A stretch of 64,000 nt of DNA from Protonemura montana (taxonomy: Eukaryota > Arthropoda > Insecta > Plecoptera > Nemouridae): positions 7,951,660 to 8,015,659 of the forward strand of contig OX387609.1 in assembly GCA_947568835.1 (NCBI GenBank). Direction: 5' to 3'. Positions 6,140 through 56,051 of the stretch are shown here, piece by piece. Made by a program: the position numbers and the translations under genes. Numbering within the stretch: the stretch's first letter is position 1; the number at the start of each line of letters is the position of its first letter. The notes below the pieces were generated by a model. It was not told where the DNA came from and did not search any database. It saw only the letters and a program-made list of their open reading frames with translations.

Positions 6140-6510
6140 ATTGATTTGTTGACGCTTTGAAAATAAGTTCTGTGATACTGGTCTAATTAGAATTTGATAA
6201 TGAGGATGAGGATGACGAACCTTACCTAGCCTAGAAGGGAAGAGGGAAAATCAGGTGCCGGCACGTAGCCTACTGTCGAAGAGCACCAAGGGGCCCACCG
6301 GTTTAACGTCCCTTCCGAAGGACGGTAGAACGCGAACAACAGGATTCCTCCACAAATTTATTCTGTCAAGAGGTTGATAAGCAAGGCGAATGAAGTTAAT
6401 GAAGTAACTTTCATCCCCTCCAACCTCACACCCAATAAGAACTGGTCCAAGAACTCATCCAATACCTGACTCAGCGCAGTGTTGCTTAACTTCAGTGATC
6501 ACACAAAAAC
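6140..6510 (-). mobile_element. 5S-headed SINE copy 2
   Basis: Minus-strand copy. The body runs from CCTAGCCTAGAAGGG through TAACGTCCCTTCCGAAGGAC and GAGGTTGATAAGCAAGGCG. The head is shortened: part of the C box is lost, but TGACTCAGCGCAGTGTTGC and TTCAGTGATCAC remain. Confidence 0.8.
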
Positions 6511-6963
6511 CAAGAAAGAAATTACCGACCCCTTTGGGCAGATTTAATAAAACCAACCGTGAAATTCGAGCCTTAACGCGAAGAAATTAAAGGGCATACC
6601 TTGAAACCCACGGCAAATCCCAGCCAACTTGACAAAATTAACTCTCCGGTTTGGTTACCTCGTTCTAGTCGGGTCACCATGGCATTATGGTGATAAGATT
6701 CGGTGCAAGCCCCTGGCACAGCGAACCATCCACCACGTGCCCAACGCTATCTTAGCACCGTCTTGTTAACACGGGGAATAAATTGTCCTGGCTCGAGCTA
6801 ATAGCATGTTTGCTTGGTGTGCAACTTGATCCTAGAATAAAGTGTCCCTTATATGCTGGCGTAAAGGGGACCATGGACACGCTTTGATAGAAACAGAAAG
6901 ACACTGAATCATTATGATGGTTTTTAGACAAATGTCTACTTGATTTATCCTTAGCACTAGTTT

Positions 6964-8880: not shown

Positions 8881-9352
8881 TTGTTGTTTTTAACGACACA
8901 CTGTTTTGATGAAGTTTTGATGTAGTTATCTAGAGACGACGGTGGAAGAGTAGGTGATGTTTAGGATGATGATGAACCTTACCTAGTAGAGAAGAAAGGA
9001 GAGCTAACCCGGAGACGGCAAGCCTGTTCCCGTCGAAGAGCACCAAAGGAATTACCGGCTCAACATCCCTTCTGAAAGACGGTACAACGCGAACAACATG
9101 ATTCCTCCACAAATCCATGCGGTTGATAATCAAGACGAGTAAAGTTGCTGTACTAACTTCCATTCCTCCAATCTCACTTCCAAACAGAATTGGTCATGTA
9201 ATTAAAAGTGGTCACCCATCCAATACATGACCCAGTACAGTGCTGCTTAACTTTCAACACGCTAAATAGTTCAGTGGTCACCCGACCAATACATGAACTA
9301 GAGCAGTGTTTCTTAACATCGATAATAGCACTAGAACCAGTGTTTTACGCTA
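8881..9352 (-). mobile_element. 5S-headed SINE copy 4, with two heads
   Basis: Full body. There are two successive head units, GGTCACCCATCCAATACATG at 9210 and GGTCACCCGACCAATACATG at 9276. The first is internally deleted, so the spacing is 66 rather than about 90 bases. Confidence 0.8.
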
Positions 9353-11722: not shown

Positions 11723-12183
11723 GTTTAACGACGCACTGTTCTGACAACAGACCCTGTGGCACTGTGTGGAGACTACCAGCTTGATGTCCCTTCTGAAGGA
11801 CGGTGCAACTCGAACAAAATGATACCTCCACATATTCATGCTGTCGAGAGGTGGCGAGCAAGGCGAGCGAAGTTTTTGTACAAAATTTCTCCCGAACAGA
11901 ACTCGACGTGTGTATTATGGTCACCCATCTTACATCTAACACGACGCAGTGTTGCTTAACTTCAGTAATGTCACGATAACCGGTGTTTCTAACACGCTAA
12001 GCCGTTCGGTGGTCACCCATCAAATACCTGATCCAGCGCAGTGTTGCTTAACCTCCGTAATGTCACGAGAACCTGTGTTTCTAACACGCTCCGTTTGGTG
12101 GTCACCCATCCAATACCTAATCCAGCGCAGAGCTTAACTTCAGAGATCTCAATGTTTCTAACACGGCAGACCTTTCGGTTGAG
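11723..12183 (-). mobile_element. 5S-headed SINE copy 5, with three tandem heads
   Basis: The body is internally deleted between tail and CTTGATGTCCCTTCTGAAGG. Three consecutive head units start at 11919, 12011 and 12100 (spacing 92 and 89). Each has GGTCACCCAT..., a GTTGCTTAAC-like or shortened A box, and AGAACC.GTGTTTCTAACACG. Confidence 0.85.
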
Positions 12184-12931: not shown

Positions 12932-13285
12932 TTCAACGACCCATTGTATTTAGAGTGTGGATTACCTAACCTAGCCTAAAACGGAGGAAGGTAACCCGGT
13001 GCCGGCACGCAGCTTACTTCTGTCGATGAGCACCAAGGGGACTACCGGCTCAACGTGCCTTCTGAAGGACGGTATAACTCGAACAACAGGATTCCTCCAC
13101 AAATCCATGCTGTCGAGAGGTTGATAAGCGAGACGAGTGAAGTTGCTGTACTAACTTTCATCCCTCCAACCTCTCTCCCGAACAGAACTGGTCATTTGTA
13201 TGATGGTCGCCCATCCAATACCTGACTCGGCGCAGTGTTGCTGAACTTTTGTGATCTCACGAGAACCGGTGTTTCCAATGGAGTA
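12932..13285 (-). mobile_element. 5S-headed SINE copy 6
   Basis: Tail TTCAACGACCCATTG, body GGTGCCGGCACGCAGC, GAGCACCAAGGGGAC, CTGTCGAGAGGTTGATAAGC, single head ending GATCTCACGAGAACCGGTG, which is the complement of the 5S segment CGGTTCTCGTC.GATC. Confidence 0.82.
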
Positions 13286-20439: not shown

Positions 20440-20592
20440 GTTAGCCAACACTGCGGTGGGTCAGGTTTTGAATGGGTGACCATCATACTTTTGCCCGCAG
20501 TTCTATTCTGGATACACGTCGGAGGGATGAAAATAACACAGGGCTCGTTATCAAAACAGTGCTTTGCTAAAACAACAAAACAACAAAACTTG
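20440..20592 (+). mobile_element. 5S-headed SINE copy 7, internally deleted
   Basis: Forward copy: CAACACTGCGGTGGGTCAGG then GAATGGGTGACCATCATAC, then a jump to the 3' end (AACAGTGCTTTGCTAAAACAACAAAAC). Most of the body is missing. Confidence 0.7.
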
Positions 20593-22863: not shown

Positions 22864-23765
22864 TATACCCGTGGTAACATAAGATAGCAGAATTGAGAAG
22901 CTCTGTCAGGCGATCTCAGCATCTCCATGGCTACCAAACGTTGAATCTACCATTGAACCTCCTATACTAGGCCATAATATACCCGTGGTAACATAAGATA
23001 GCAGAATTGAGAAGCCCTGTCAGGCGATCTCAGCATCTCCATGGCTACCAAACGTTGAATCTACCATTGAACCTCCTATGCTAGGCCATAATATACCCGT
23101 GGTAACATAAGATAGCAGAATTGAGAAGCTCTGTCATGCGATCTCAGCATCTTCATGGCTACCAAACGTTGAATCTACCATTGAACCTCCAATGCTAGGC
23201 CATAATATACCCGTGGTAACATAAGATAGCAGACTTGAGAGGCTCTGTCAGGTGATCTCAGCATCTTCATGGCTACCAAACGTTGAATCTACCATTGAAC
23301 CTCCTATGCTAGGCCATAATATACCCGTGGTAACATAAGATAGCAGAATTGAGAAGCTCTGTCAGGCGATCTCAGCATCTTCATGGCTACCAAACGTTGA
23401 ATCTACCATTGAACCTCCTATGCTAGGCCATAATATACCCGTGGTAACATATGATAGCAGAATTGAGAAGCTCTGTCATGCGATCTCAGCATCTCCATGG
23501 CTACCAAACGTTGAATCTACCATTGAACCTCCTATGCTAGGCCATAATATACCCGTGGTAACATAAGATAGCAGAATTGAGAGGCTCTGTCAGGCGATCT
23601 CAGCATCTCCATGGCTACCAAACGTTGAATCTACCATTGAACCTCCTATGCCAGGCCATAATATACCCGTGGTAACATAAGATAGCAGAATTGAGAAGCT
23701 CTGTCAGGTGATCTCAGCATCTTCATGGCTACCAAACGTTGAATCTACCATTGAACCTCATATGC
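22864..23765. repeat. 114-bp tandem array, about 8 copies
   Basis: The word GTGGTAACATA recurs at 22871, 22985, 23099, 23213, 23327, 23441, 23555 and 23669, a strict 114-base period. Units differ by only a few substitutions (for example CTCCATGG/CTTCATGG, AGAAGCTC/AGAGGCTC). The final unit stops early at CATTGAACCTCATATG. Stops in all frames; no sign of coding. Confidence 0.95.
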
Positions 23766-23779
23766 TTCACATTTTTTTT

Positions 23780-24619: not shown

Positions 24620-25230
24620 CATTGCTACAGTCTAGCCCGTGAGAGAAGATACCAGCCCCAGGGACTGTCCCCTGCATTGCTATAGTCTAACCCATGAGAG
24701 AAGATACCAGCCCAGGGACTGTCCCCTGCATTGCTACAGTCTAGCCCGTGAGAGAAGATACCAGCCCAGGGACTGTCCCCTGCATTGCTATAGTCTAACC
24801 CATGAGAGATGATACCTGGACAAGGACTGTCCCCTGCATTGCTACAGTCTAGCCCGTGAGAGAAGATACCAGCACAAGGGCTGTCCCCAGCATTGCTACA
24901 GTCTAGCCCGTGAGAGAAGATACCAGCCCCAGGGACTGTCCCCTGCATTGCTATAGTCTAACCCATGAGAGAAGATACCAGCCCAGGGACTGTCCCCTGC
25001 ATTGCTACAGTCTAGCCCGTGAGAGAAGATACCAGCCCAGGGACTGTCCCCTGCATTGCTATAGTCTAACCCATGAGAGATGATACCTGGACAAGGACTG
25101 TCCCCTGCATTGCTACAGTCTAGCCCGTGAGAGAAGATACCAGCACAAGGACTGCCCCCTGCATTGCTACAGTCTAGCCCGTGAGAGAAGATACCAGACC
25201 AAGGACTGCTCCCAAGCATTGCTACCATCA
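24620..25230. repeat. 54-bp minisatellite with 271-bp higher-order period, about 11 units
   Basis: Units begin CATTGCTAC or CATTGCTAT. Two subtypes alternate (GTCTAGCCCGTGAG and GTCTAACCCATGAG). A block of five units (C, T, C, T with GATGATACCTGGACAAGG, C) repeats at 24620, 24891 and 25162, exactly 271 bases apart. Because 54 is divisible by 3, the minus strand stays open with an 18-residue repeat, but I regard this as incidental. Confidence 0.95.
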
Positions 25231-28433: not shown

Positions 28434-29741
28434 ATGGCGTTCTTCGAGGAAATAGACGTTTTCTGGATCATTTTAATCCGTGCTCTTCTTTGCGGAATCA
28501 TTCTTCGAATGGGCTACATGATAGTCCAAATCGGAGAGAGTTCTTCAACTAAAATCCATACGATTCTCAATCAAAACCTCATCGAATTGACTGTTGCTTC
28601 AGTTTCGTTCTACGTATTCGGTCGCAGTATCATTTTCACCAACGAAGATGATAAACCACAACCATCAGATTACGACGACTTCTTCGACATTAACGATGAA
28701 GAAAACAACAAAAATGCAAGTTTCTTATACGTTTGGACTGCAATGATATCAACAACAACGATTTTCACAGCAGCCACCGCAGGTAGAATCCATAAAATCG
28801 GTCACATCGTTTTGACAGTTGCCATTGCTGGTTTCATCCATCCTTTAGCCATGAGTTGGACATGGAATTCAAACAGCTTCATGAAAGACTCGTCATTTCT
28901 CGACTACAACGTTACTTACCTGGACTCGGGAAGTTTCTCTCACGTGCATTTACTCGCCGGCACTGCTGCTCTCTTCACTGCTGCGTTTTTGGGGCGCGAT
29001 TTACGCAAGAAAAACAAAAATGAATCCGAACTAACCACAACACACATCAGCATCGGGTACTTCTTAATTATGCTGGGAACATTTGGCTTGACAGTTCCAC
29101 TGACAAGCAAGTTGAACGAAATCCAACCACCCCAGTGGACAAATTTCTATCCTGAATCTTACGAATCTCTGATAGCAAACAATATCGCTGCAGCTATTGG
29201 AGGCTATTCAGTGTCTTCATGTTCCCAGCTGATATTGCGGTCTAAGAAACACAGGTGCTTCGTTCAAAGTCTTCAAGCAGCTTTGGCAGGAATGGTTACT
29301 GTTTCATCTGCTATTTATCTATTCACACCGTTCACTTCAATGATAGTAGGAGCCATCGGTGGATTTACCTTTGTTGTAGTTCACTCTCACAGCATCAAAT
29401 CTGCGCCCATCGAAGACCACTGCAATGTCATCACAACTCACATGGTTTGTGGATTGATTGGATCGTTGTATCCCAAGAAGATGACCGAATTTTCGATGAC
29501 GTTTGGTAGAGAAGCCGTGGTCAATTTCTTGTGGGAAGTTGTGTGTAATTTGGGTATGCATGCGATGTTTAACGTTTCTTTGGTGGCGATTTTGGTGTCT
29601 CTGGATAGACTTGGGTATGTCAGGAAGAGTTCTAAAGAGGGAAGACGTTTGCATAGGAGGAACGGTGGACTGGTTGAACGAGACGAAGAATGGGGTGGAA
29701 AATTTGGATGTAAACGGTATCTGCGGATCAAGAAAAGATAA
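28434..29741 (+). CDS. Divergent ammonium transporter (Amt) family protein, copy 1
   Basis: A single uninterrupted reading frame of 435 residues, starting at an ATG in a good context (AAAACATGG). It is predicted to be an integral membrane protein with about 11 hydrophobic segments (roughly 11-33, 47-69, 99-117, 122-143, 168-187, 203-225, 246-268, 277-297, 299-318, 330-348, 362-388) and a basic tail of about 45 residues. Family assignment rests on Amt landmarks in order: the FG near 62-63, the AGR at 116-118 where Amt has AER, the D164 to H172 block (DSGSFSHVHLLAG against DFAGG..VH), and EDHCNVITTHMVCG at 327-340 against DDP...VHGVCG. H172 and H336 align with the AmtB twin histidines H168 and H318. 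Positions matching the Phe gate (F107, F215) are A103 and L219, and S219 is L223. So the fold is Amt, but ammonium transport is not assured. An AATAAA lies at 29870. Copy 2 lies about 0.9 kb downstream. Confidence 0.85.
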   Translation: MAFFEEIDVFWIILIRALLCGIILRMGYMIVQIGESSSTKIHTILNQNLIELTVASVSFYVFGRSIIFTNEDDKPQPSDYDDFFDINDEENNKNASFLYVWTAMISTTTIFTAATAGRIHKIGHIVLTVAIAGFIHPLAMSWTWNSNSFMKDSSFLDYNVTYLDSGSFSHVHLLAGTAALFTAAFLGRDLRKKNKNESELTTTHISIGYFLIMLGTFGLTVPLTSKLNEIQPPQWTNFYPESYESLIANNIAAAIGGYSVSSCSQLILRSKKHRCFVQSLQAALAGMVTVSSAIYLFTPFTSMIVGAIGGFTFVVVHSHSIKSAPIEDHCNVITTHMVCGLIGSLYPKKMTEFSMTFGREAVVNFLWEVVCNLGMHAMFNVSLVAILVSLDRLGYVRKSSKEGRRLHRRNGGLVERDEEWGGKFGCKRYLRIKKR

Positions 29742-29869
29742 TGGTTGTTGTTGTTGTTGTTTGCGACATAATTACAGATTAGGTTGATAGAAATAGAAAT
29801 AAGAAGCTCAAATTAATTATAATAAGTACCTACCACACATATGCCTAATCATATGCATACGATTATAAC

Positions 29870-29875
29870 AATAAA
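29870..29875 (+). terminator. Poly(A) signal candidate for Amt copy 1
   Basis: AATAAA about 130 bases after the stop codon. A second AATAAA is at 29970. Position and hexamer are the only evidence. Confidence 0.5.
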
Positions 29876-30566
29876 TAGAAGATGATTACTACGAAATTTC
29901 GTTGTTTTTTATCAAAATGTTAACCAAAATTTGCTCTCCCGCCTTCTAATTTCCGTGTCAATGTGTGAGAATAAAGTTGACTGGTGAATGAATGGCTTTC
30001 ATGTACGTGGTGTTCAAGTGATGGCTGTATATCGATTTACTTTACGAAACTACGCAACAAGTGGTTGCAGAATCATAAAAATACATCAGATTTTATGTTG
30101 ACCCAATATCATAAACAATATTCTTCTTCACAATAGGAACTTACCTTAAGGATTATATCAATAGACGTTTGCATTTTTTGCATATGCTACTGCTTTCCAT
30201 ACATATGGTTTCGTTTTGTAGTTGAACACCCATCTTATATGATCACATCTCCTCTTGAATTAATCAAACAAATTCTATCTGCTAGAGATTTAATTAGACA
30301 TGGCACATTAGATTCACAATTTTGAGCTGAGATCGCTAAAAACAAAAGATTTTCTTACTCAAATTTAATCGACGCGTGCGAAACGATGTCCTTTGAAAGT
30401 ACACATACTAATCTTCTAATTCATCAAAAGTGATATCATATATTGACAGTCGATATCAAGGTTTACTACTATTGAGGGTATGCTTGCTTTTTACTATGAA
30501 ATACTATGTTATACTATGATAACATACATAATCGTGATAAAAATTATCTCTGCTGAATGGTACTTT

Positions 30567-30583
30567 TCTGATATCTTTTTCAG
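30567..30583 (+). promoter_or_regulatory. Probable 3' splice site upstream of Amt copy 2
   Basis: A branch-like CTGAT is followed by a T-rich run and CAG ending at 30583, 22 bases before the ATG at 30606. It suggests a non-coding 5' exon further upstream in the 0.86-kb gap after copy 1. I did not find a convincing partner donor. Confidence 0.45.
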
Positions 30584-30605
30584 GAATTTGGTCTATGGTC
30601 ATTCA

Positions 30606-32633
30606 ATGAATCATACCCAAATAATGGATGAAACGTCACCGGAATTTTTTATAAATAAAAGCATGCTTTTCGTACGAGTAGCCCTTGCTGTCCTGTTTCG
30701 AATCGGCTCGATACTTATCCAAGTAAGTTCGATCCCAGTCAACGACGTCAACACGATATTGCTGCAAAATATCATCGAGCTCTCAATTGGAACCATAACG
30801 TTCTTCGTCTTTGGCCACTTGGTTGTATTCGGAGATCATACCATGTCAGAATGGAGTTCTATATTCACCACAAGCAGCCAAACAGAAATTGAATACGCAG
30901 TTTACGCTTGGACAGCAATCACGACTACAACTGCAATATTTACTACGATGACAGCAGGACGAATCCACGCCGTAGGCTACATTGTCATTACGATGCTAAT
31001 ATCGGGATTACTCCAGCCTATAGCTATGCGTTTGGCTTGGACACCAGACAGTTACGCAAGAAACCAGACAGTATTCGGCATTCACCTAAAGTACGTTGAT
31101 TTTGGAGGAATCGGCCACGTTCATCTTCTTGCCGGTACCGCCGCATTCCTAGCAACAATATTCATAGGACGGCGATTGATCAGACTGAAAGACATCGACG
31201 AAGCATCTTTACCTCCAAGCTCCGACACCTCTTTGACCATCGGATACGTTCTCGTCATCTTAGGAACGATTGGTTTGACATTGCCTCATCCGATAGTAGA
31301 AGAAGCCATTAACGATCCTTTTGGAATAAAATGCGGCCTTGCTGTAAACGGAGGTATCCTAGCGGCATTAACCGCTGAAGTCATCTTCATTCGAAAAAAG
31401 TTAAACTCCTGGGCGATAGCGAGATGCCTTCAAGGTGGTTTGGCAGGAATTATCCTCGTATCTAACGGGACACTCGCATATTCCTCGATGGTGTGTTTGG
31501 TGCTGGGTGCTTTGGGAGGACTTATATTCTACTTCATGCAACAATTGATGTTTAAGTCGCCGCTAGAAGATTACTGTAACGTGATACCAGTTCACTTCTA
31601 CTGCGCATTTTTCAGCGTGCTTTTAACTCTGCGTCCAGTCGATGTCTTGTTCCGGGTCCTGATGCAGTTTGGGTGGGAAATCATTGTGAATACCTGTCTT
31701 ATCGGATTTTACATAATCTGTCTCGTACCGGTCTTCCTTTTGTTGATGGTCTGCGGATTATTGCGCAATCGGCAATGCGCTATCGACCACAGTCGGGCGA
31801 TGAAAGTGTTGCGTAGCCAGAAAAGCAGCGGATGTTTGTCGAGGCTTTTCCCACCCGGTTTGAATCCCGAACTGCTGGTGCCCAGATCCAGGGTGAGACA
31901 TGAAGAGTACCAGGACCAACGGCTTACTGAAGAAGTGGAGGTCGAACTGAAAACCTTCGGGAGTTCAACGAATCGGAAACGAGGAGTAGAAGACGATGAA
32001 GCAGGAAACAAAAAGAAGGTGAGTCGGGGTAATTTTGACGAAGTATTTGATGAATTGGAAGATTTGCCGACTACTTCAAGGAAGAAACGATTTGCTGCTA
32101 CTAGAGACATCGAATGTAGGTTTGCAATGGTGAATCGTACGCATCCGCTTACGTTTAAGAAGAGTTGCAAGTACCAGCTGCACGGAAAGAAGCGGGCGTG
32201 TTTGGGAGGGGGTGATGCCGGGTTTACGCTTGAAAGCAAGAAGGGGAATGCAAGAAAGTGGTTTAAGAACTACGAGGATTTGCCAGATGAGCGCAGAGCT
32301 GAGGTGCTGGTGGAAATGAAGGCAAGATCGAAGGGGATAGGTCAAATCCTTGAAGGAAGTAATGCTTTACTAGGTGTCGAAAGTAAGGGTGCACCAGTGA
32401 AAGGTAATGAAAGCTTTGAATTTGCATATTATGAGAATCTGAACCTTCCGGAGGGAAGATTTGATGGAGTTTGTGATCTTGAGATAGTTGCTGGTGATGG
32501 AAAGAAAGACATGGAATCGGGAAGCCAAAAGGAATGTCTTCAAACCTCTCAGTCTGTTTGGTCTTACATGAAGGCTGATGGCAAGAAACCTAATGAGGAT
32601 GATGACAAAGAAGCTTATCAAGAGGATAAATAG
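30606..32633 (+). CDS. Divergent ammonium transporter (Amt) family protein, copy 2, with long cytosolic tail
   Basis: A single coding exon giving 675 residues from the ATG at 30606. The open frame runs upstream to an ATG at 30480, but a strong 3' splice site (pyrimidine run then CAG, ending at 30583) lies between. The upstream part is therefore probably intron, and the true start is 30606 or 30624. Residues 17-386 form an Amt-like core with about 11 membrane segments. D165 and H173 sit in DFGGIGHVHLLAG; H330 sits in EDYCNVIPVH. The twin histidines are kept. The Phe-gate positions are A104 and L224, the S219 position is H228, and AER is AGR (117-119), the same changes as in copy 1. Residues from about 387 form a hydrophilic tail of some 290 residues rich in Lys, Glu and Asp, with no domain that I recognise. 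Shared motifs and orientation indicate tandem duplication followed by strong divergence. AATAAA signals lie at 32761 and 32828. Confidence 0.83.
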   Translation: MNHTQIMDETSPEFFINKSMLFVRVALAVLFRIGSILIQVSSIPVNDVNTILLQNIIELSIGTITFFVFGHLVVFGDHTMSEWSSIFTTSSQTEIEYAVYAWTAITTTTAIFTTMTAGRIHAVGYIVITMLISGLLQPIAMRLAWTPDSYARNQTVFGIHLKYVDFGGIGHVHLLAGTAAFLATIFIGRRLIRLKDIDEASLPPSSDTSLTIGYVLVILGTIGLTLPHPIVEEAINDPFGIKCGLAVNGGILAALTAEVIFIRKKLNSWAIARCLQGGLAGIILVSNGTLAYSSMVCLVLGALGGLIFYFMQQLMFKSPLEDYCNVIPVHFYCAFFSVLLTLRPVDVLFRVLMQFGWEIIVNTCLIGFYIICLVPVFLLLMVCGLLRNRQCAIDHSRAMKVLRSQKSSGCLSRLFPPGLNPELLVPRSRVRHEEYQDQRLTEEVEVELKTFGSSTNRKRGVEDDEAGNKKKVSRGNFDEVFDELEDLPTTSRKKRFAATRDIECRFAMVNRTHPLTFKKSCKYQLHGKKRACLGGGDAGFTLESKKGNARKWFKNYEDLPDERRAEVLVEMKARSKGIGQILEGSNALLGVESKGAPVKGNESFEFAYYENLNLPEGRFDGVCDLEIVAGDGKKDMESGSQKECLQTSQSVWSYMKADGKKPNEDDDKEAYQEDK

Positions 32634-32760: not shown

Positions 32761-32766
32761 AATAAA
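32761..32766 (+). terminator. Poly(A) signal candidate for Amt copy 2
   Basis: AATAAA 128 bases after the TAG stop. A second hexamer lies at 32828. Confidence 0.5.
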
Positions 32767-34856: not shown

Positions 34857-37800
34857 CTGGAAAGAAACACGACGGCAGTTAGAATAGAGTTGCAAACATA
34901 AACAATTTTTTTTTTACGTTGCGATGGATTGTTTTTTAAGTTCATTGATTATTGCAAAGAAAAGTGTATCTAAATGAGGGGTGTTCTATGACTCAGTCTC
35001 GAAAACTACCTTTATAAAGTGTGCAAAATAACCTCCATGAGTAGACTGTGCTAACCCTTGAAAGTACTGTTTACCAAACTGTTCCAAAGCCTTCAGTAAG
35101 CCGGTACAATACACACTTAACTACATTGTGATAGTTAGGGAATAAATCCAATAATATTTTTTTAATGGCCTTGTAAATTCAGTACATTTTGGGACGCAAC
35201 ATTTGAGGAGATGTTGCACTCCTATCAACTACTTAATTGGTTCTCCAACTGCAATACTCGAATTAGTCAAGAAATAACAAAATTTAGGTTACCTGCAGCA
35301 ATTTGTAGCTCTTGTCTTCCATGGGCGGATATTGGCGACCTTTGCTTCTGCCAAGACACTTAGTGTGGTCGCCGTTGATTACTTGGCAGAAGAAGCCCTT
35401 TTTTGGATCGTACCTGCCGGACAAACAATTCATGTTGGACGTGCAGAGATATAAATAATAAAGGGAACAATCAACCACAAGGGTCTATAATCAATGACCG
35501 CATCGAGAATCCATACTAAGGATTCAATGATCTTTTTAGGAATGGAGTAGTGATTGGACATTATTATTTTATGAATAGCATCGAGCTACTGGTTAAGTGT
35601 GGTAAAACCAAATAGTGAAACCAAATCAAATGCCCTCTCTGTACCAGCTGTTCTTTACGATAAATGTATACTATTTACTTTGTTGATTCTTTAATGAGTA
35701 AGACGAGGCTTAGCAGAATTTGAGTTTCTGAAACTTGAATAGTTATGGGACTCTTTAAGTATAGTGAAATACAAAGATCTGACACTGAAAACATCACCTG
35801 AGGCTAGATCCTCAAAGTGAGGTTATATTGGACTCATCATGGCAGCATGAGTAGCCAATGAAATGCTGTGAACAACGCCTGTACGTTGGCGTTTATATTT
35901 TAACATAGAAACATTTCTATACAAAAACCACACCGCAGGTAGCCCAGAAGAGTACTGGGTATTCATCCATCATCATGTCATTCTCATACCTGAGATGTTG
36001 TAGATAGTCAAAAGGAGGAGTGATCTTGAGAAATCGCTGGAGTTCGTTCATCGTGTCAGCGGGACTCGATCGCAGCTGGTCCCCGTCGATGATCAACAGC
36101 TGTTGCGGTGGGTAATACGACAGCCACCGTTCGAGGTGTTGGGAGTACTTTCCCGGGTTCAAGCAGCTGTCAAAGAAACATGACGGGTTGTCAAACATCT
36201 GCCTCTCAGATTTGGAGATTTCAACATGAGAGATAATTTATTAATCCAATTAAGATTATTTTGAATTGAGAATTATAAGTAAATACATGCTGGTTTGGGT
36301 GCCAAATAGCTTAATCACCAAATTGATTGTCGATAATTAATATTTATTAATTAAACAACGTTTATTTAGGCATGGGTGAGGTGATGTATATGTTGACAAA
36401 TCCTTTTTAACCTGCCAATTATTACAAGCTATAAAAAGTGCAAGGTATGCATTGCCTGGTCTGTAATGCAGGTCAAGAATTAAATAGTAAAATATGTGTG
36501 CCACACAACCAAAAAAGGCTTTTGGTTTCATACTTTTGGCTATTCAACTTCCAACAGAATACTTTTATCTCTTGCCAGTTCATAGTCCTTCATAAATTAG
36601 CAACCAAGTTGTCATATATTTATCTCTGTTAGTACATATTTTTATGCACATTTTTCACATAAGAACAGTTGGTTTGAAACCATTGTAGGTACTGACCGGT
36701 TCCTGAGTTCTCGGAGTGGCTTCGGGGCAGTATCGCTCGCCGTGATCACCTGGTGGAACGAGTAGTTGAGAGCCAGCTGATCGCCGTGCGCCCGCATGTG
36801 CTGGTACCAGCTGTATGCTCGTCTTGCAGGAGATATCAGAATCGTTACCTGGCGACAAGAAGAAACAATCGTCACTTTAGTAACTTCAATAGATAACCTC
36901 AGGGCAGCCACACTCTTAAAGACGACGTTAAGATTGCACGTATCATTAATTAATTAATTTATGCTACTAACGTACAGGGTATTTGTGAGAAATTTTATGC
37001 TAAAAACTAAAAAGGTCTTCAGCATAAAGTTACGTTAAGTTATTGCATTTCATTAAAATCTGTGTTTACTCCTTTAAGGAGTTAAAAAAGGATTTGAGAA
37101 AGGAGTAATAGGCTCAAAGCACAGCTGTGCCAAGTCTATCTGTGCCCAAAGCATATAATTGTGACACAAAGCAAATCCTTTTTGCAGAAAAATATCTTTG
37201 GTACAAAATTATTGCAGTATATTTTGATAAGTCAAGTCTATCTTCAGGCCGTTACGTGGAAGTAATCAAAGCAGGGGTGAAGAAACTAGAAAGGACAAAA
37301 AGTTGACGGTTTGGACAGGATTTTGGGTCTCTTATGGATGTGATACAGTATAATTAGAGCCAAGATTTTACGGTGTTATGATTTCGATAATTTCGTGGTA
37401 AGCTTTTTGGATTTCGGTGTTATGGCGGTGTTATGGAAAAAGTACAGAATTTCATGTCTATAACAGATTTCAGACATAGGTGACGAAAAAAAGAAAAAAC
37501 ATGTTTTTACCATTAGTTTTATCGAAATTTTAGTGCTAATTATTTGAATTTTAGCGTTTATAGCTAAATAGAAAAAAGGGGTTTTGCGATCTACATTCGA
37601 AAGGAATGAAGATTTAGGGTAAGCACTGGGATCTTTAATAAAGAAGTGATCAATAATAATTACAATAAAGCAAATATTTAGTGTAGGTCCTCAACATCGG
37701 TATTTGTTAGGGACTTGGAACAAAATTAATAGCACAAATAAATATTTTACATAAATGCCAACATGAAATACATTGTATGGCAGTAAGAGCGACACCTACC

Positions 37801-40800
37801 ACTTGTTAAACTGAACATTGAACAAGTTTCAATGGTAGCTTCCCTAAAAAACCTCTCTGCATCAACACTGTTCACTGGGGCCCAAATAGTTTGCTAAGTC
37901 AGAACTGCAAATGAGAAGTTTGAGATTTTTATATCCATTAGAATTTGAATTAGACCCACTGCCTGGTACTAACAACATACTTTGCAAGATTGTCTTTTTT
38001 CTCCCAGACAAGTCTGGTGTTCCAGATTCCACACATCAAAATATATCCATCACTCACAAAGAGTTGCTTTGTTTGATCCTCAATAGTCAAAGATTTATTA
38101 CACCCCATTGAAATTTGAAATCCCAGCTAATCTCTATATAGACTGAATGCATGTGGTGTCGGTGCTCACATGGCAAGGAGGGGAAGATTCAGCCAACCAA
38201 TGGCAATGGTTTCCTACTGCAAACATTTTGCCCCACTACTTCTACCCCCTAAGCTTAGGAATGTTGACAGCATTTGATGAGAAACAGACCTGAATATGAC
38301 AAATTCATGGAAATGTGTGTTTAGAGAGATAAAATAAACATTTTAAATATTTTGCATGGAAATAAGTGGCTATTTCGCAAAATACACATATTTCAGTGAA
38401 ATAGCTTCATTATCTCTTAATTTAGCATAAAAACAAACGGGTTATTTTATTTGTTTATTTATTTTCCGTGAAATATGGTTTGATAAAAATGAAAAAAAAA
38501 ACGATTATCTGAAATTTAAGATAATTGGATGGGAAAAGGCTCATTTCGTGATGATTTCGCGGGAAATAGTTGATTTCGGTGTTATGGATGATTTTTCGTG
38601 AATTTCGCGTTTTGTCGCGATGAGCTTCTTACATATTTGAGTTGGGAATTCAATGAATCGCACTCATTTGTAAGAATAACAAGAGATAAGAACAATTCGC
38701 AATTTCGCGCATCACCATATAATCGTGGCTCTAAGTATAATGAATGGATCATTCTGAGGACTAAATTTGACTCTCCTTGACTGGGAGCTGATAAGTAGCA
38801 AGCAATGCATTTCAAGCGATAAATGATACTGCTATAACTACAATAGTCGCAGCAATAGTCGTCACCATTGCAAGTCTCACCAGCTTTGCGTGCGGCAAAA
38901 GGGCGTGTGCACGCCGGGGCACGAGGTCTCCGTCGAAGTAGGTTGCGCTTTTCTCGAAGAGGTAGCGCCCTGTGGCGTTCTTAGGCACCGGGAAAAAGCT
39001 CATGTACCAGTCCAGCCCTCTGGAAACAAACATGGCACCATGTAAGATTAAAATTCTTAGCGTAACAAAGTTTGTTCTTGTTCACAGCTAAAACTTTACA
39101 ATTCTTCCGCCAATTTTGGTTTGTTGCATGCATCATGAATCACATAAAGGAAAAAATAATTAAGCAACTTTCTAAGACAGCTGTTTTCTTCAAAAAGTCT
39201 GTGTTGGCACTTTCTAACAATTTTCAATCGATCTCTTGTCAAATTAATAAAAAGACAAGGGTTTGTAAGGCAAAACAGTTGAGAATTCTTCTCTGAAACA
39301 TTGTACAACTCTTTACGTCAACCACAGCCAGCTTTTTCAAGCTCTATAAGTTGCGTTACCTCTTTCCTTTACCCCGGTGCACGGACCTTTTGATACTTTT
39401 ACCGTTTATAAAATTAGCCTTCACACATAGATAGTTCTACCCAGCAAATTAAAGTCAAGAAGCTAAGTCTACCTTAACTTAGTCCCAACTCTACCATACA
39501 GAACCAACTAATCAGCTACGAGCATGTACACACCTGTAATAGTTCTTTCCGTTGAAGAACTGTATCTCCTCGAACGTGTCCGGGCTGGGAAAGTTGGAGC
39601 TGACTTCGTTGTGCATGGAGAGGAACGTATAGAGTGCCGTCGTGCCGGTCTTTTGCGGTCCGATGACGAGAAACCGTGGCAACTGGTCGCACGTTTTGTT
39701 GCGTGACCAGATTTTCTGATGGCGCGAGTCGTCACACGGGTTCTGCAAACGTAGACAGAAAGGTTAGGTTAATAGGTACCCGAGGAGAGAACGAAGATTT
39801 CTTGACCGAAAGATTAAGCTGGAGAGTTTTCTTTACAAATTGGCAAATTGATGTTATTGATTGATGTGAAGAAAAACTACCGCTCTCTCACTTAGTAATT
39901 CATGGTATTTTGCCGCTTGTCAGGAAAGATCAATGGCTAATCTTATGGGAAATTCAAAGTGTAGCATTTTAGCAACTACGAATTGATATAGGAAAAAACA
40001 TTCTGTCTAATTGAATAATTCTTTTCCTGTAATTTCTATTGTGAAATGTAACGGTTCAATTGTTCTCAAAAAATATTGCTGATTTGACATTTTAAAAGTT
40101 TGAAAATAAACAAAATTCAACTACAACTCTTGTAATCTGTAAATTAAACAGCAGATTAGTTTAGAATTAGAATAAAGAGGAAATTTTTTAAGTTAGATAT
40201 AGTAATGACATATACATGTATTTTAACTAAGCCACGGAGCGATAAACACGATAAATAAATTATTACAAATACAAAATGAAGACTATCGCTCAGACATCAG
40301 CCTCAAAAGTCGAGTGCTCACCCCCCAAACCGGGTCCCCCTCCTCGGGGTACATCTGAAAGTACTTGTCAGCGATCTGGAGAGGAGGCGCGGACACCAGC
40401 CTCAGGTTCGTCCAGCACTGGAGAAACTTGACAACCGACTCGAACGTGTAGAGCGCTAGGCGGTCGTTGCCGTAGTTACTCATGTGGGACATGAAGATGT
40501 TGATCTAACGGGCGAAAAATGAAGAGATTAGTAAAATGGGTGTTTTAAATGTTTTAGTTTTGCTCTGCGTTGGCAAATTTTTGTAGCAATGATGGTAATG
40601 TTTAATAGTACCTTTGAACCAAAGAGCAAGTCTGATGCTTTTCTTGACATTTTATTGAATTGGTTAGTTTGTAATGGAATGACCGGGAAATGATCAGAAC
40701 AAGAAAATGTCAATGATACGCAAATTGATAAGCAGGCACTTATGGATTGTTTCTGTTTTTGAATACATTTTTTCTTGACTTCACTTAATTTTCAACAAAA

Positions 40801-43800
40801 TCTTAATTACACAGTTCTATTTTTGTAAGGACTGAAAGGTTAGATAAAATTGAAGTTCTTTGGTTTTTTAATTTCACTAAAGTGTGTTTAAATTTTTATG
40901 CTAAATCAACTTGCTCTCTCAGTTATTATCATCTTGCTGATTTATAGAACGTATTTGCATTAGCTCTATACAAACGCGGATGTAAATTCACCAAGAATAC
41001 TGGAAAATTGGCCACAGTGCGGGTTTAAATTGTTTGCCTACTTGTTGAAATATACAATTGCACATCACATCATTTTAACTCAGGTTTGTCCCTGCTAGGT
41101 GCCTAAATGAGTAGCACCAACTAACCGGATTGTAAACTATTGTCTGGAACAGTTCGCCACCCTGTATGGACTCGTCCAGCTTGGCCCGGCCTCCCGGGTA
41201 TCGCTCGATCATGATCGTGTGCGTGAACAAGCCACACGTCTGTCGTGGCAGCACCTGTAAGGAAAACAAAGCACTGTTAGATGCCGAGTCAGGTACCTGC
41301 TAGTCTAGGAGATAAATCTTAGATGAATCTTATTGCAGGTTGAGGTTACGTTCACAAAACGATGCTGGCCTTCCCTCTCCCCTAGCATTAAAAAATATTT
41401 TACATCCGTACCTGATGTGTGTTAGTATGTGTTTGCCATATTTGAATCGTATCAGAATTGAAATTTTCCATCCAGTAAGCTGAGCATTTCTTCTCATTTT
41501 AAAGCAAGCCCTATCTTCAAATCATAATCAGGTCCCTAATCATAAAATCTCTAACAATGACAAAGATACTCGCCAAAAAATAAACATTTTCTGAAGTTTT
41601 AAAAATTTCTAGACAAGTGCACCAAGCAATGCCAATTTCCTACTTCGGTAATTTGCGCTCCCTCTCTCTTTCCTTTGTTACCACAACAATTCTCTTACAA
41701 GAATCTTCTTTAACATGCGCTTGAGCTTCATTCAACTCATGTTTCAGTCAGATTCTACGAACCAGTTTTTCAGTGGCACATTAAGTAATTGATGGATTGG
41801 TAAGAAAGCACTTGGCTGTCACCAAGTTAATAACTAATAAACAGACAGTTAGAATCTTAATGGACCTTTGAAAAAACGGCAGCAAGTTTTAACAAGTGAG
41901 CGTCGTCACAAAATGTCACAATAAAAAATGTGTTTTTGGATTGAGTCTCGTACCATGATGTTCCTGTGGATAAAGCCTCTTCTTAGCCGTGCTGGTCGAA
42001 GGTGTGGATACTCCTCAGTGGAAGTCACGCGGACGTTCCACACTCGTTTCCACGCCTGCAACGAAAAGGAAATGGTTACAGTAGATCCAATCGATGAGAT
42101 GCCGAGGTAACACAATAAATTCTGGAGTCCGTCACATTGTACTTGTCAAGATGAATGTGTTATATACCATCAGCTGACCAAGCAAACTGTCGAAATGTAT
42201 TTTTATGTAAAAGAAGGTCAAAACCAATTTATTTGTTTATTTATTTATTACTTCAAAATGGAACAAGTATATAAACAAGATGCATCATTCGATGCTCAAT
42301 GCTGTAGAGCTAGGTAATTATCCTCTTAATTAAGCCAAGTACAGCTCATAATACAGAATCTATCAAAATCTAGCACATTAATTTTTTTTAAATTTTAACC
42401 AGTTTCTGTTTAAAATGGATAGAAACTAATATAGCATAGGAATTATCTTTACAAAATGTCTGCCTCTTCATGTTCTGCATCATTCATATCCTTCCTTGAC
42501 AGAATTTTTTTCCATTTATCTCCATCTGTTCTACTTCCCTTGTCTTCAACTTCACTTTAATTTAATACTTTAATAAAAAATAGTAATTCAGCCCAGATAA
42601 CCACTCTACAAATGCCACCGATGCCAACCGATGCCAACTAATGATTCAATATTGCCGCAGCTAAACTTGCACCACCACCCACCTGATATAGAAGCTCGTG
42701 TACGGGATAAACTCCCGAATGATGCGGCGCCACCGAGTATCCCGAGTCGGTCGGGATTCCGTGAGCAGCGGCAAAATCCCGATTTAGCGTCATGTCGGCC
42801 TCGAGCTGCGTCGCGTTGTCGTAGAGGTGCGGCTGCTGGTGGCTCCACATGTGGCTGAACCATAGGAACTGGTCGGCGTTGTCTGCGAGCAGTCGTCAAG
42901 AGTTAGATACAAAGAGATTTTGCTTTTGGATGTGGGCAGAGTATTATACTTAAAGCCATGTTAGGGGTTATCTAAGGGTTGGATCTTCCTATTAATGTGC
43001 CATATTGCCATTGGCAAAGTAACTATCCCAGCATTTGCCTGTAATGGTTGCAGAAAACAAAGCAAGGCCATTTTTAGGTTTCCAAAATTTTTAGATTAGA
43101 TTATACCTTTCCAGGTTTTTACCATTTTCAGGTTTTTAGGTTTTTTTAGGTTTTTAGGATTCCAGGATGGAGCCCGAGATCTTCTAGAAGCATGGTACGC
43201 AAGCTTTGAAAAATCTTCATCTTGGGTAAGATAAGTAATTCACATTCTCTTTTACAGTTGGTACTAGGTACTATTTGTTTTTTATGATGAAGATCGATTT
43301 TGTAACAATTTGAAAAATGTTGCAATTTTACGCCAAATTGACTTAAAAAAATCTTTGATTGTAATGCTAATTGATTCCCTGGTGTGACATCAAGCTTTAC
43401 TTTTATACCAAGAACTAGTTCGTGCACCAAAATGTGATCTCGAAACTGTTGCTTAACTTTTATCCTGTCACAAAAATGACAAATGACACAATAGAAATGA
43501 AATGCAAAGCTCAAATGATGCAAGTTCTATCACCACATTGAGTTCTAGGCCTGCAGTGAATTGATAATAAATCGAGACCAAGCCTGCAGCCCAAGCTCGT
43601 GTTAATTTAATATCTGGAGATGTGTATTTCTTACCAAGCAGCATGTCGTCTCCTTGGTTCTCCTCACTTGTACCGTGGTGGAAATATTTTCCCGAGAAGC
43701 CCAAGTTAAATCGGAACCCAGGAACCAGCTGTTGGATTCGGTTTTGCGTTGCTATCAGCGCCTGGAAGGGATGGAAGAACACGTGTCAGTTTGGCTTGTT

Positions 43801-46800
43801 TGAAATCAACGCGTTAATTACCTCGGGCCGAGGTTATAAGTTTAGAGTTTGGCCGAATTTCTCTTTCCACTGAGTCGGAAAAAACGGTTGATGATTATTG
43901 ATTACGCTTTGCTTTTGTTACTTGGTGCATTTTTTTTTTAATTTTTGGGAAATTTTTGTGCTAAGATAATTGTTTATGCCTCTTCACTGAAAGTGAAAGT
44001 GTGTAGGCAGTCAGATAAAATAAAGTGTGAAGATGTGACGAGAATGATGGGGCTGGTATCTGAAATTCTTTCAAAAAATGTTTGCAAAACATTCTAGGAT
44101 CTCCCTTAAAGACTTTTTACAGAAAACATTTTAACAAAAAAGCTACGGCTTAGTTCGCCTAGCTAAAACTTGTTGTTAGTTCTACAGAGTAGTCCCCATT
44201 ACAGCGAATCTAATAAACTCACCGAGACGTCGTCCTGCCTCAGCCGTGTCCCGCGCTCGCCGACAAAGATGTCGTCCACGTCCACGAGAATGTGTCGTTG
44301 AAGGTTGACGCTGAGCTGGCCATGCGACAGGTAGGAGAGCGCGTCTAGGAACAAAAGCTTGTGCAGCCAGAACCGCAGTCCTCCGCCGAACAGCACACGT
44401 TGGATTCCGTCGAAAAGTCCGTGGTCCTGCGTAAGAGATCGATGAACAGTGTTAGCTAGCAAATATTACTTGCCGTTTCTTGCACAATACTCATTCCCTA
44501 CAAATCACTGGCCACTGTTATTGCTGACCATGGGAATGGTTCAATGAAGTCTATCTAACAGGTAGAGTACATTCTGATTCCAGATAACTGGTACCTAAAT
44601 TAATTTCGTTACAATATAATCTTCCGATAAATTCCAATTGTCTTGAGATTTTAAATCTCAATAGACTGAAGGTGCCTTACACTGCAAACTATATTTTAAG
44701 CAGGATTTTTGTTATCTTTTGCGTTTTCCATATTACATCTCAAACCAGCATTCAATAGATGGAAGAGAGCTAAGCTGGAAAAATGTCTGATGGAACTGGA
44801 ATACCAACCCGGGACCTTCAAAAGACAATTAAAAGGTTCCGAGTTCGTATCCCAGTTAGTTCGCCCATTTCCCCAGGTTTTGCTTCCGTTCCACTTCGAT
44901 CAGAGATAACGGCTACGCAATGAATGCCTTGCTGACCTGCAGAACGGTTGGCAGCGGTGTCTTGGCCTCGTCGCGTGGAAACCCGTGGTGGTTGCGAGTG
45001 GCCCACGCCAGTGGCTCGTAGCTCGAGTGGTTGGCGGAAAAGATGGTCCAGTCGTCACCGGGCAATGCGCCCCAAGCTGTCTCGCCAGCACGAGTCAAAC
45101 GCAGGACAGGAGACGCTGCATTCAAGGCGGCATCCTGATCAGAGACCAATGGCTTGATAAGTGGCTTTGATGGATTTATTATCAGAAATATATATTTGCA
45201 ATGGCAATCAATTCTTCAGAAAGTAATCTGTTGCATTAGGGTTTATTGGTTGAGGAATTGGAGTTACTTAAAATAGTTTTCAGGGACTTCACTGCAATCA
45301 GATCAATTTTTAATTTACTGTAAGGCCCTATTGACTTATTTTGCAAGAATGTCAATCCACTTATGTTGAACAGCAACAAATTTGTCTTCAGTTATCTTTA
45401 ACAAGTGAGTAATTGTCATTTCATTGACACTAAAATCGTCTCATCAAAGTCTCAAATCAAAACATCCGCATCACAATAAAAATTTCGATGATCAGAAAAG
45501 CACGACCTGACTAAATTGCAAAGAACACCATCTATCGAAAGAAGTCTATACTATTTTAGCTTGTTAGCTAGGAGGACGCTGTAGAATGGGCTCCCCTACC
45601 CAAAGGTTTTGCATAGCAATTTAACATAAGGGTGGAATACCTGTGTAAACTACATCTGTGCTATTACTGATTCACTGAAGTAGAAACCGTTTTAATTGAA
45701 AAACCCCGTAGAGCCACTGTTCCAGTGTTCCGACCGCGTGACCAACCTTAAGCTGCAAGTTCGTGTGAATGAACAGCGGGAATCCTCGCAGCTGCGCTCC
45801 GACCAAAGTTTCCTCGCTGGCCGGCTGGAAGCCGACGACGCCGACGCTGTACTCGCGGCAGTACTTGTCTAGCAGCTCGCGATTCCACTTGTCCATGTTC
45901 AGGTACTTGTTGAGGTTCTCGAAGACGACCACGCCGTACTTGCCCTTGTCCAGGTTAGTGAGTACCGGCAGACTCTTGCCGGACACCTCCAGTTTGTACC
46001 TGTGGAGGAGCCGAAGTTTAGCTACAGGTGTACCGGAAATTAACAAGTAGTGACAGTGTTTTGAGATTTGGCATTTTTGTGGATTTTAGTCTGTGTGTGT
46101 TGATTCATTCCCAATCCATGTTTGTTTTCTAAAAATAAGCAGAAATTTGCTTTGCTGTTTCATATCAACTGGGCAACATTAATAAATTTGATTTGTTTTT
46201 GGGAAAAGAAAAATAATTTTAAGTGGAGTTTTGAATGCTAAGTAAAAACAAATATTTTTCCTGATGTTTTGTAAAGTATGACCATTGCTTTATTAAGGGT
46301 GACAGCTCCACTGACCTGATTTAACGTTACGAAACTTCGGGAAAATTACTTAATTTTTACTTGGCATTCAGATTTCCAGTTTAAATGATTTTTTTTGAAA
46401 CCTAGTTTTGGGATAAGATAAAGTAGACATGAATTACTATAGTAGCTTACTTTTTTGCAGCTGTAATTCAAAGTTGAGATTTTCACTTTTAAAAGTGGTC
46501 TACAAGTTCATGTTTTTGTCTAGAAAGTACTTTCCTGGTCCCATCTCTTGCGATGTGATAATCATCGGTAAAAATTCACATTGAAAACCTCGTTTGCACT
46601 CCGATGATCGCGTGCCACTCACTTAATCCGGTTGTAGACGAGCAGCTCCGCAATCTCACGGCCCAGCCGAGAGTAGGTGGTCTCGACGAAGACCAGCACC
46701 TTCGGATCGATGCGCAGCCGGGCAGCTGACCGGTGATCTGCAGCCAACGCTGGAAGTCGGTTCACGCCGTTGAGCACTGCACACCGGATCACCGGCTCGG

Positions 46801-49640: not shown

Positions 49641-49856
49641 AGATAACATTTATTAGATGATTTAATGTGGATTTTCACTTATAAGTTCTCTATGAACTGA
49701 GATTTTTTTTCACTTCTAGAAAAAGAGGTAAAGGAGTTTTAATACACTATCCATACAAAATAGTTGATATCAAAAATATTATAATTTGTAGCATGTTTAT
49801 CCTTTGCAATCTTTATTCATGTTCGAAGCACTGGTTCTCATTAGATAACAGAAGTC

Positions 49857-50195
49857 TAGTAACACTGCACTGGGTCAGGTATTGGATGGGTGACAATCAT
49901 ACACCTGACCAGTTCTGTTCGGGAGAGAGGCTGGAGGGATGAAAGTTAGTACAGCAACTTCAGTCGCCTTGCTTTTCAACCTCACAACAGTATGGATTTG
50001 TGGGAGAATCCTGGTTTTCGTGCTGTACCCTCCTTTGGAAGGGATGTTAAGCCGATGGTCCCCTTGGTGCTCTACGACAGGAATACGCTTAGACACCTGA
50101 TATCCCTTAATCCCTAGCTTTGGTTTACCATCATCCTTATAATATCACCCTTCGATGACGTTATCAGACCAGAGTTTCACAGGGACACTCAATGA
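49857..50195 (+). mobile_element. 5S-headed SINE copy 8
   Basis: Forward copy from inside the head (AACACTGCACTGGGTCAGG, TATTGGATGGGTGAC) through GTTCTGTTCGGGAGAGAGGC and CCCCTTGGTGCTCTACGACA to CAGACCAGAGTTTCACAGGG. Confidence 0.8.
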
Positions 50196-50516: not shown

Positions 50517-50812
50517 GGTGAGTAAGTGGGTTGGGAGGGAAACCGGGAGCCGACACGTAGCCAACTCCTGTCGAAGAGCACCAAGGGATCACAGGTGATA
50601 AGTCCCTTCCGAAGGACGGTTCAACTCAGTTCCTCTACAAATCCATGCTGTCGAGAGGTTGATAAGCAAGGCAAACGAATTTGTACTAACATTCATCCCT
50701 CCAAATTCTCTCCTGAACAGAACTGGTCATGTAAATGATGGTCACCAATCCAATACCTGATCCAGCGCAATGTTGCTTAACTTTGGTGTCTAGTACGCCA
50801 GATCGTTGGGTC
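50517..50812 (-). mobile_element. 5S-headed SINE copy 9
   Basis: Minus-strand copy lying 0.3 kb from copy 8 in opposite orientation. Body CGACACGTAGCC, GAGCACCAAGGG, AGTCCCTTCCGAAGGACGG; head CCAATCCAATACCTGATCCA. The tail end is absent. Confidence 0.78.
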
Positions 50813-53800: not shown

Positions 53801-54425
53801 GAGGTGGACAATGATTTGATCGTTGCAACAGAAGATGCATTTCATTATGACTGGCATTTCAGATGAATTCATATGTGTTTGAATTGTTTTTTTTGCAGAG
53901 TTAAAGGGCGACTCGCTTTAAATTTTCAAAAAAGTGTTTTAAAAATTCTGGATCGCAGCAGACCTGTCATTTTCGATAGTAAGAATATGCTTGCCAGTTG
54001 TTTTATCTGTAAAAGTCAATTACTAAAGCTTTGCAGACCCCTTGAAAATGATCGAAAAACAAGTAACCCGTGCCCGGCAACGGCCAGTTCATTACAATGT
54101 AATGGGTGAGTTAAACAAGAGTTGTCTCGGCAAACTAAGAGCGGTATTTGCTGAAAATGAAACCTGGAACGCGGTTTTAAAATCATAATGTTCAAACATT
54201 ATCAAACAGGAGTTGAAGAAAAATTAAAAAAATTTCATTTATTCATTGATCTATTTGGTCAAGATTGTAAGGAACTGGTTAAACTCCTAATATCTTCAAT
54301 AAACCTCGGAGCCAGTTGTAACAATCGAGATTCTGCAAACTCTACAGAAGTGAATTGAGATGTTAACACTGATAATATCATTGATGATTTAACACTTTTA
54401 TACTTTTTTGGTTTGGAATGACGAA
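50815..54425. other. Intergenic, apart from the palindrome
   Basis: Contains two close YY1-like motifs (GCCGCCATTTCG at 51698, ACGCCATTTTAA at 51740) and many A runs. No gene recognised. Confidence 0.45.
53762..53797. repeat. Perfect 36-base palindrome
   Basis: Arms CTTAGAGAAAAGAATAC (53762-53778) and GTATTCTTTTCTCTAAG (53781-53797) are exact complements with a 2-base spacer. It could be a fresh inverted duplication or a fold-back footprint. No matching second copy seen in the window. Confidence 0.9.
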
Positions 54426-54427
54426 AC

Positions 54428-54787
54428 ACCGGTATTCGTTCGATCGCCGATTTAAGCAACACTTCGCTGGGTAAGGTATTGGACGGGTGACCACCACTCA
54501 CATGACCAGTTCTGTTCGGTAGAGAGGTTGGAGGGATGAAAGTTAGTCCAACTTCACTCGCCTTTTAGTTAGTCTGCACTCTAGTCCTTCGGAAGGGACG
54601 GATACCGGTGATCCCCTTGGATTTCTTTCACTAGACCGGGACCGGGTTTCCCCTCTTCACCATTCTATCCCGGGTTTGGTTCATTACCATCCTCATCAGC
54701 ACCGATTTATTAATCAACGCCGTTAGACCAGTACCACAGAAACCGTTTTCAGAACAGTGTGTCGTTAAACACCACAAATCAACCAAC
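54428..54787 (+). mobile_element. 5S-headed SINE copy 10, tail complete
   Basis: Forward copy with head (GATCGCCGATTTAAGCAACA, TATTGGACGGGTGACCA), body, and complete tail ACAGTGTGTCGTTAAACACC followed by CACAAATCAACCAAC. Confidence 0.82.
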
Positions 54788-56051
54788 AACTTTTAATCAC
54801 TATTTTCCAGCTACCTCACCATAGCGCCACTGCGAGTGCATGAGCCAATCTCAGCAAAATCCATGCTTTCAAGAAAACGTACCTTCTACTGACATAGAAC
54901 CTCGGCAACCAATTTATTTCCGAACCCAACTAATAAGGTATCGGCCGAACGACCTGAGCACCAAGCCATCCAGATACTATATAATTAAACTCAGTCAAGA
55001 TGGTCCCACGTATATACCTACTCTTAACTCTCACTCACAATCTCACTTTCGAGTTACCGAGTTAGCCTCGTGATTGACGAACGCGCGAACGCGACTTGCC
55101 GTGAATGATTGATTGGAGATGGAATCGCTTGCGATTTGCAGATGCCGTCGAGTCGTCAATAAGATATGGTTGGCGCGTTCACGGGTAGGCAAGGCGTTTG
55201 GTGCGATTTATTTTGTAGCTGCTCTCAATTAGTGTTAGCGTTTCGGTGAAAAATGAGGGGCGTTTTAAGGTGCGAGGTTAGCTATGCCTGAAATTAGGTA
55301 ACTAAGTTTGTTGATTTTAATTGGAATGTTGCGTCATGCGTTTATTTCATGGTATTGCGGGTCTCTTCATGACTTTCGTTTCATTCACAAGGAATTTTAT
55401 TTGTTCACAAGGGGTTCGGATATTTTTTTGATGCATCCACTCTCTTCGAAAGATAATATATGTATATATTTATTTTTTATTTATCTGATGCTGTAAGAAG
55501 CAGGATTGACAGAAGGCAGTATTGACAGTAGAAACTCGAAGGTAACTAATTCACAGAAAAATATTCTCCGAAAAATATTAACTGATAAAATATTTAAAAC
55601 ACGGATATGAAAAACGTTTCAAGTATTTAATCAAACACGCTACGTGGATTTTTACTGATTTGTTATTCCATAAATAAAACTTTCTTATGACAGGTGATTA
55701 TCGATTGAGTCCTTTAGTCTTGACTTTGAGCTAATATAGCGTTCACTCCCTGTGAAAAACAAGCTGAAAGTGTAGTTTCTGTACAGCAAACATTTCTCAT
55801 TCGAGCTAGCAATGCACACACGCCCTTTCAGAAATCTCCTTTACAACGAATCTCGTTTCAATTTGCCCGAAATAGGGATCCACTCAAAACGCAATTATCA
55901 AAACTTTGCTCAGAAAAAAATATATTAAATTTTCTTCAAATAATAAACTTGAGTCGACTGAGGAATACGGCGAGACGAGACGAAAAGAAAATTGCTTCCA
56001 TAAAAAAAAGGGATATCTCGCAGAATTACATAACCGAAAAGTTTGGCGCGT

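Follow-up and report, generated by a model that had tools for sequence, protein, structure and literature searches.

What can an ammonium transporter (Amt) pore still do once both phenylalanines of its gate have gone and the twin histidines have stayed? The question is posed by two tandem genes, gene 1 and gene 2 (Table 1), in a 64,000-nucleotide stretch of the genome of the plecopteran Protonemura montana (contig OX387609.1, positions 7,951,660 to 8,015,659 of the forward strand), referred to here as the window. Homology, predicted fold, shared changes and purifying selection are all supported by our analyses of the pair. Our tentative answer, held with a probability of roughly 0.4, is that the two genes encode working Amt-fold proteins that may act as ungated, low-affinity channels for neutral NH3 or amines.

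Pore residues of the tandem pair

Both proteins are recognised by PF00909, the Pfam model of the Amt/Mep/Rh superfamily (134.6 bits for gene 1 and 104.9 bits for gene 2; curated cut-off, 23.2), and the 11-helix Amt fold is present in their predicted structures. The NCBI model TIGR00836 (amt) gives 111 and 89.1 bits versus a cut-off of 343.3, more than 230 bits short in both cases. Residues are named here by their equivalents in mature AmtB numbering, with gene 2 numbered along its 717 amino acids. The twin-histidine pore motif of the superfamily is kept (H172 and H336 in gene 1, H215 and H372 in gene 2), and the alignment finds W148, D160 (D164 in gene 1, D207 in gene 2), V167, H168, D310 and H318 conserved in both copies. 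The twin-histidine and D160 positions named in an earlier note on this DNA are thereby confirmed; its gene 2 numbering began at Met 43 (30606), so that H173, H330 and D165 there are the present numbers minus 42.

The gate itself is gone. F107 is replaced by alanine (A103 in gene 1, A146 in gene 2) and F215 by leucine (L219 and L266), S219 has become L223 in gene 1 and H270 in gene 2, and E121 is a glycine in each (G117 and G160), all as the earlier note had read them, including AGR in place of AER. In AmtB, the S1 site consists of F107, W148 and S219, and the S2 site of F215, W212 and H168 (PMC10433425); W148 is the sole S1 residue kept in the pair and H168 the sole S2 residue, the aromatics having been lost (W212T and F215L). 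Further changes common to both copies are W212T, N216T, G218P, A162G, F103Y and S273, and both carry Q263 where most references have asparagine and AmtB serine. Y140 is histidine in gene 1 and glutamine in gene 2. The retention of W148, the shared W212T, N216T, G218P, A162G and F103Y and the divergent Y140 had all been overlooked. The extra histidine of the HVH motif, previously singled out, is indeed present (V166 is H170 in gene 1 and H213 in gene 2) but is probably less telling than claimed, because the site is variable, with valine, isoleucine or leucine in references and proline in the insect Amt BdorAmt.

A misaligned gate, the objection that the earlier note itself had raised, is ruled out: four MAFFT modes and a profile from 97 references agree at F107 and F215, and the four modes concur at every one of the 29 landmarks compared, save for S219 of gene 2, which is valine under FFT-NS. 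The least certain region of the alignment follows the eleventh transmembrane helix, where the C-terminal motif (EGLDVNSHG in AmtB, GADLMEH in BdorAmt) is unrecognisable in both copies, although a shorter stretch, EG...H, occurs in gene 1.

Among 141 Amts taken as references from bacteria and viral contigs, a sample that favours conserved Amts because it was fetched by motif and then retained for likeness to bacterial Amts, F107 stands in 139 and F215, W212, N216, S219, A162 and E121 in all 141, and none is without both gate phenylalanines. The fetch motifs contained W148 for the first set, Y140, D160 and A162 for the second, and W212, F215, D160 and A162 for the third; F107, S219, N216 and E121 were in none of them. 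The first set kept 80 of 454 loci and the third 80 of 169. All 97 loci of the first and second sets entered the landmark alignment, and 93 entered that of near-invariant positions, four partial loci having been dropped. The 141 combine 89 of these 93 (identical rows removed) with 52 from the third set, of which 69 of the 80 loci were taken (the other 11 lie on second-set contigs), less two with a stop and then less identical rows.

BdorAmt (sequence from PMC11433543) shares the twin histidines, D160 and W148 with the pair, whereas it keeps F107, F215, W212, N216, S219 and the AER motif (E121), all of which the pair has lost; gate loss is therefore not general for insects. The same source gives A189 of BdorAmt as the D160 equivalent, where the present alignment places an aspartate.

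Shared change and selection

The two copies share only 30% identity across 389 aligned codons. Of nine pore positions that PMC10433425 names, however, 8 are identical between them, versus 114 of all 361 aligned positions (hypergeometric P = 5.5e-4); measured against the 72 near-invariant positions with letters in both copies, P is 0.026. Chance as the cause of the shared pore changes is ruled out by this test, and the gate changes, being common to both copies, were probably made before the duplication. Across 73 positions that are near-invariant in the 93 references, both copies keep the residue at 21 and one copy at 15, while both have made the same change at 18 and different changes at 19. 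Alignments, tree and pore-position test together support the earlier claim of a strongly divergent Amt-family pair with gate changes in both copies.

Identity at codon positions 1, 2 and 3 is 0.445, 0.640 and 0.319, where chance would give about 0.26, 0.28 and 0.25, and pN (0.473) lies below pS (0.728) between the copies, although an exact dN/dS is not derivable because pS is near saturation. These coding patterns support selection on the protein sequence rather than decay, as the earlier note had proposed. A pair of decaying pseudogenes, which the many altered near-invariant residues and the 19 discordant ones might suggest, is very improbable given two long intact open reading frames, the excess of second-position over third-position identity, pN below pS, and the preservation of the twin histidines, D160 and W148 in both copies.

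Passage or sensing through a gate-less pore

Published mutants suggest what such a pore can no longer do. Neither ammonium nor methylammonium is transported by AmtB or AtAMT1;2 once both gate phenylalanines are lost (PMC6856177), and F215A alone kills transport in AmtB, where F215 is described as essential (PMC6856177, PMC10433425). The S219 equivalent is reported as required in AtAMT1;2 (PMC6856177). With the gate, S1 and S2 broken, and with mutants carrying such phenylalanine losses inactive, canonical ammonium-ion uptake by the pair appears unlikely unless other changes compensate, and the same mutants would point to altered conduction or sensing. The loss of F215 and the double phenylalanine loss provide the strongest argument, because the S219 equivalent is dispensable for methylammonium in AmtB.

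Compensation is the essence of one alternative, in which the pair would be ordinary ammonium transporters with physiological conduction, the missing gate being offset by W212T, N216T, A162G and G218P. The closest experimental counterparts, AmtB F107A/F215A and AtAMT1;2 F147A/F271A, resemble the pair in having both gate phenylalanines replaced and the tryptophan and twin histidines intact, but they are otherwise wild type, and inactive, whereas the pair has many further shared changes with which evolution could have furnished what the mutants lack. The fold, the twin histidines, D160 and W148 are kept, the loss of one phenylalanine is tolerated in AtAMT1;2 and F107A in AmtB (PMC6856177, PMC10433425), and methylammonium transport by AmtB survives the loss of S1 residues alone (PMC7256485). 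Still, the inactivity of the double mutants, the requirement for F215 in AmtB, the absence of any double-phenylalanine loss among the 141 references and the wide shortfall against TIGR00836 make ordinary transport unlikely.

Under the reading that we favour, the extracellular half of the pore would have been rebuilt in one ancestral gene before its tandem duplication: the phenylalanine gate would have been lost (A107 and L215), S1 reduced to W148 and S2 stripped of its aromatics, with the twin histidines and D160 kept. What remains could be a low-affinity, ungated route by which neutral NH3 or some small amine would move past the twin histidines, a mode convergent with Rh channels. The Rh channels RhCG and NeRh50 have, like the pair, twin histidines and no S1 site, and the outer phenylalanine of RhCG is non-obstructing, leaving its outer gate open (PMC10794816). 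They differ from the pair, which keeps W148 and has its best Protein Data Bank (PDB) scores against Amts (1.4e-14 and 1.5e-14).

Several observations weigh against an ungated channel. Rh proteins themselves retain both gate phenylalanines (PMC10433425, PMC10794816). The loss of S1 may be of little consequence by itself: AmtB F107A/W148A/S219A is reported to transport methylammonium much as the wild type does, and S219A above it (Javelle 2008, via PMC7256485). The match of the predicted fold is not independent of homology, because the alignment from which the models were built was rich in Amts, with both proteins of the pair and 57 of the 97 reference loci of the first two sets in it. The 19 of 73 near-invariant positions that changed differently suggest that function, too, might not be the same in both copies. 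Finally, the double mutants that retain the tryptophan are dead rather than leaky, and a Trp change added to them brings partial rescue, mainly of methylammonium transport (PMC6856177); as the pair keeps this tryptophan, the mutants speak no less for a receptor that does not conduct than for a channel.

Such a receptor or transceptor, somewhat less probable in our view but a serious candidate, would have a pore shut to ammonium, would bind ammonium or an amine through the outer tryptophan, the aspartate and the twin histidines, and would signal, in gene 2, through a long charged tail. The failure of double phenylalanine mutants with intact tryptophan to transport (PMC6856177) agrees with it, as does the description of an insect Amt as an atypical olfactory receptor for ammonia (PMC11433543). 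The top PDB matches of the pair, by sequence and by fold, are the receptor Amts KsAmt5 (6eu6) and Sd-Amt1 (8qj3 and 8qpf), its nearest solved relatives, which likewise join a C-terminal extension to an Amt core; this rank may only mirror the general closeness of the receptor-Amt group, however, and KsAmt5 (PMC10433425) and Sd-Amt1 (by its aligned sequence) retain the phenylalanine gate and S1, unlike the pair. The tail of gene 2 (31809-32630; about 274 amino acids) is highly charged, with 49 Lys plus Arg and 49 Asp plus Glu residues, but long tails are also reported in other insect Amts (AeAmt2, 585 amino acids), and neither tail of the pair has a Pfam match, hence no recognised output or signalling domain after the Amt core. 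Gene 1 also gave a sub-threshold PARP match (14.9 bits; cut-off, 26.7), which we attribute to chance.

In a 2024 review, what the highly conserved phenylalanine gate does mechanistically is described as 'presently not understood' (PMC10794816), and no natural gate-less Amt was noticed among the matches listed in the literature on the gate and on insect Amts, which is no proof of absence in print. The pair thus offers a natural test of gate function, with the gate lost, the twin histidines kept and the accompanying changes supplied by evolution; if its members are receptors, it would extend the known use of Amts in insect ammonia sensing. More doubtfully, it may represent a conserved, previously undescribed class of animal Amt, in which the gate was taken apart along with both ammonium sites, the twin histidines and D160 were kept, and a gate-free pore or binding cavity came to accept another ligand, possibly an amine that is volatile.

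Origin, gene structure and surroundings

Trees were built from 35 of the 141 references (less than 60% identical), AmtB and the pair, with BdorAmt added to a second tree. In both, the two copies group together as a fully supported clade whose branch is very long. A single insect clade of the pair and BdorAmt, the one insect sequence included, is neither recovered nor rejected (approximately unbiased (AU) test, P = 0.48), so that, of the 'divergent arthropod Amt subfamily' proposed earlier, it is the divergent Amt pair that finds support. Published accounts give a single Amt for most of the insect genomes examined (PMC4238959, PMC4814505), while Aedes has two (AeAmt1 and AeAmt2) and Triatoma infestans AmT1 and AmT3 plus Rh50. 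The canonical insect proteins (AgAmt, DmAmt, BdorAmt, AeAmt1 and, as described, AeAmt2) are, like the pair, animal Amts with 11 transmembrane helices, and AeAmt2 is also described with twin histidines, D160 and W148; AgAmt is reported to carry ammonium and methylammonium currents and to have introns, whereas each gene of the pair is a single open reading frame.

That structure is one reason to consider horizontal acquisition followed by duplication, rather than an arthropod Amt paralogue, an origin compatible with any function but quite improbable here. By BLASTP, the best bacterial references score higher (98.6 and 80.5 bits) than BdorAmt does (55.1 and 47.4), although the BdorAmt scores are lowered by its own long branch, and one insect clade is not rejected. 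Prokaryote, viral and plasmid sequences yielded no close relative: the pair profile confirmed 0 of 40 pattern matches in prokaryote genome contigs and 0 of 120 in viral contigs, in scans that used short exact peptide patterns and so had limited sensitivity, and gene 1, the only query used for these, had no relative among plasmids (tblastn) and no BFVD match at E <= 0.001. Three viral contigs with a DNA pattern for HVHLLAGTA held no credible relative (best E, 0.14).

The pair was called intronless in the earlier note, which holds for the coding frames; gene 2 may still have a non-coding 5' exon. Translation of gene 2 could alternatively begin at Met 43 or Met 49 (30624). Repeats flanking the two genes are short and weak, and tblastn found no further copy in the window.

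Table 1. Coordinates of the two Amt-fold genes, their gate and twin-histidine codons, and nearby AATAAA strings
Feature	Position	Strand	Basis
Gene 1: gate-less Amt-fold protein, one intact open reading frame, 435 amino acids	28434..29741	+	Reading frame
Ala103 codon, gene 1 (AmtB F107, outer gate Phe)	28740..28742	+	Alignment
His172 codon, gene 1 (AmtB H168)	28947..28949	+	Alignment
Leu219 codon, gene 1 (AmtB F215, inner gate Phe)	29088..29090	+	Alignment
His336 codon, gene 1 (AmtB H318)	29439..29441	+	Alignment
AATAAA 3' of gene 1, candidate polyadenylation signal of its own (a second at 29970)	29870..29875	+	String match only
Gene 2: Amt-fold protein, longest intact open reading frame, 717 amino acids, charged C-terminal tail	30480..32633	+	Reading frame
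Ala146 codon, gene 2 (AmtB F107)	30915..30917	+	Alignment
His215 codon, gene 2 (AmtB H168)	31122..31124	+	Alignment
Leu266 codon, gene 2 (AmtB F215)	31275..31277	+	Alignment
His372 codon, gene 2 (AmtB H318)	31593..31595	+	Alignment
AATAAA 3' of gene 2, candidate polyadenylation signal of its own (a second at 32828)	32761..32766	+	String match only

The window looks like animal DNA, judging by a neighbouring gene for heparan-sulfate N-deacetylase/N-sulfotransferase, five fragments of which lie on the minus strand at 35920-46085 (Pfam HSNSD_N, HSNSD-CE and Sulfotransfer_1). A 198-amino-acid open frame at 62332-62925 (minus strand) resembles, by eye, part of a retroelement reading frame; it has no Pfam match and occurs only once in the window. 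An interspersed repeat, whose copies have diverged and are in part incomplete, occupies ten places in the 64 kb. One copy contains a 5S-rRNA-like match (47.5 bits; 11891-12009, minus strand), and the other nine lie at about 1880-2096, 6254-6511, 8997-9345, 12980-13278, 20440-20532, 49820-50089, 50534-50811, 54423-54563 and 56032-56345; the repeat looks like a family of 5S-derived short interspersed elements. Two tandem arrays lie upstream of the pair, one at 22864-23766 (114-base unit, 7.9 copies, 96% matches) and one at 24620-25225 (54-base unit, 11.2 copies, higher-order period of 271), the latter with two long open stretches of 110 and 115 amino acids in different frames of its minus strand.

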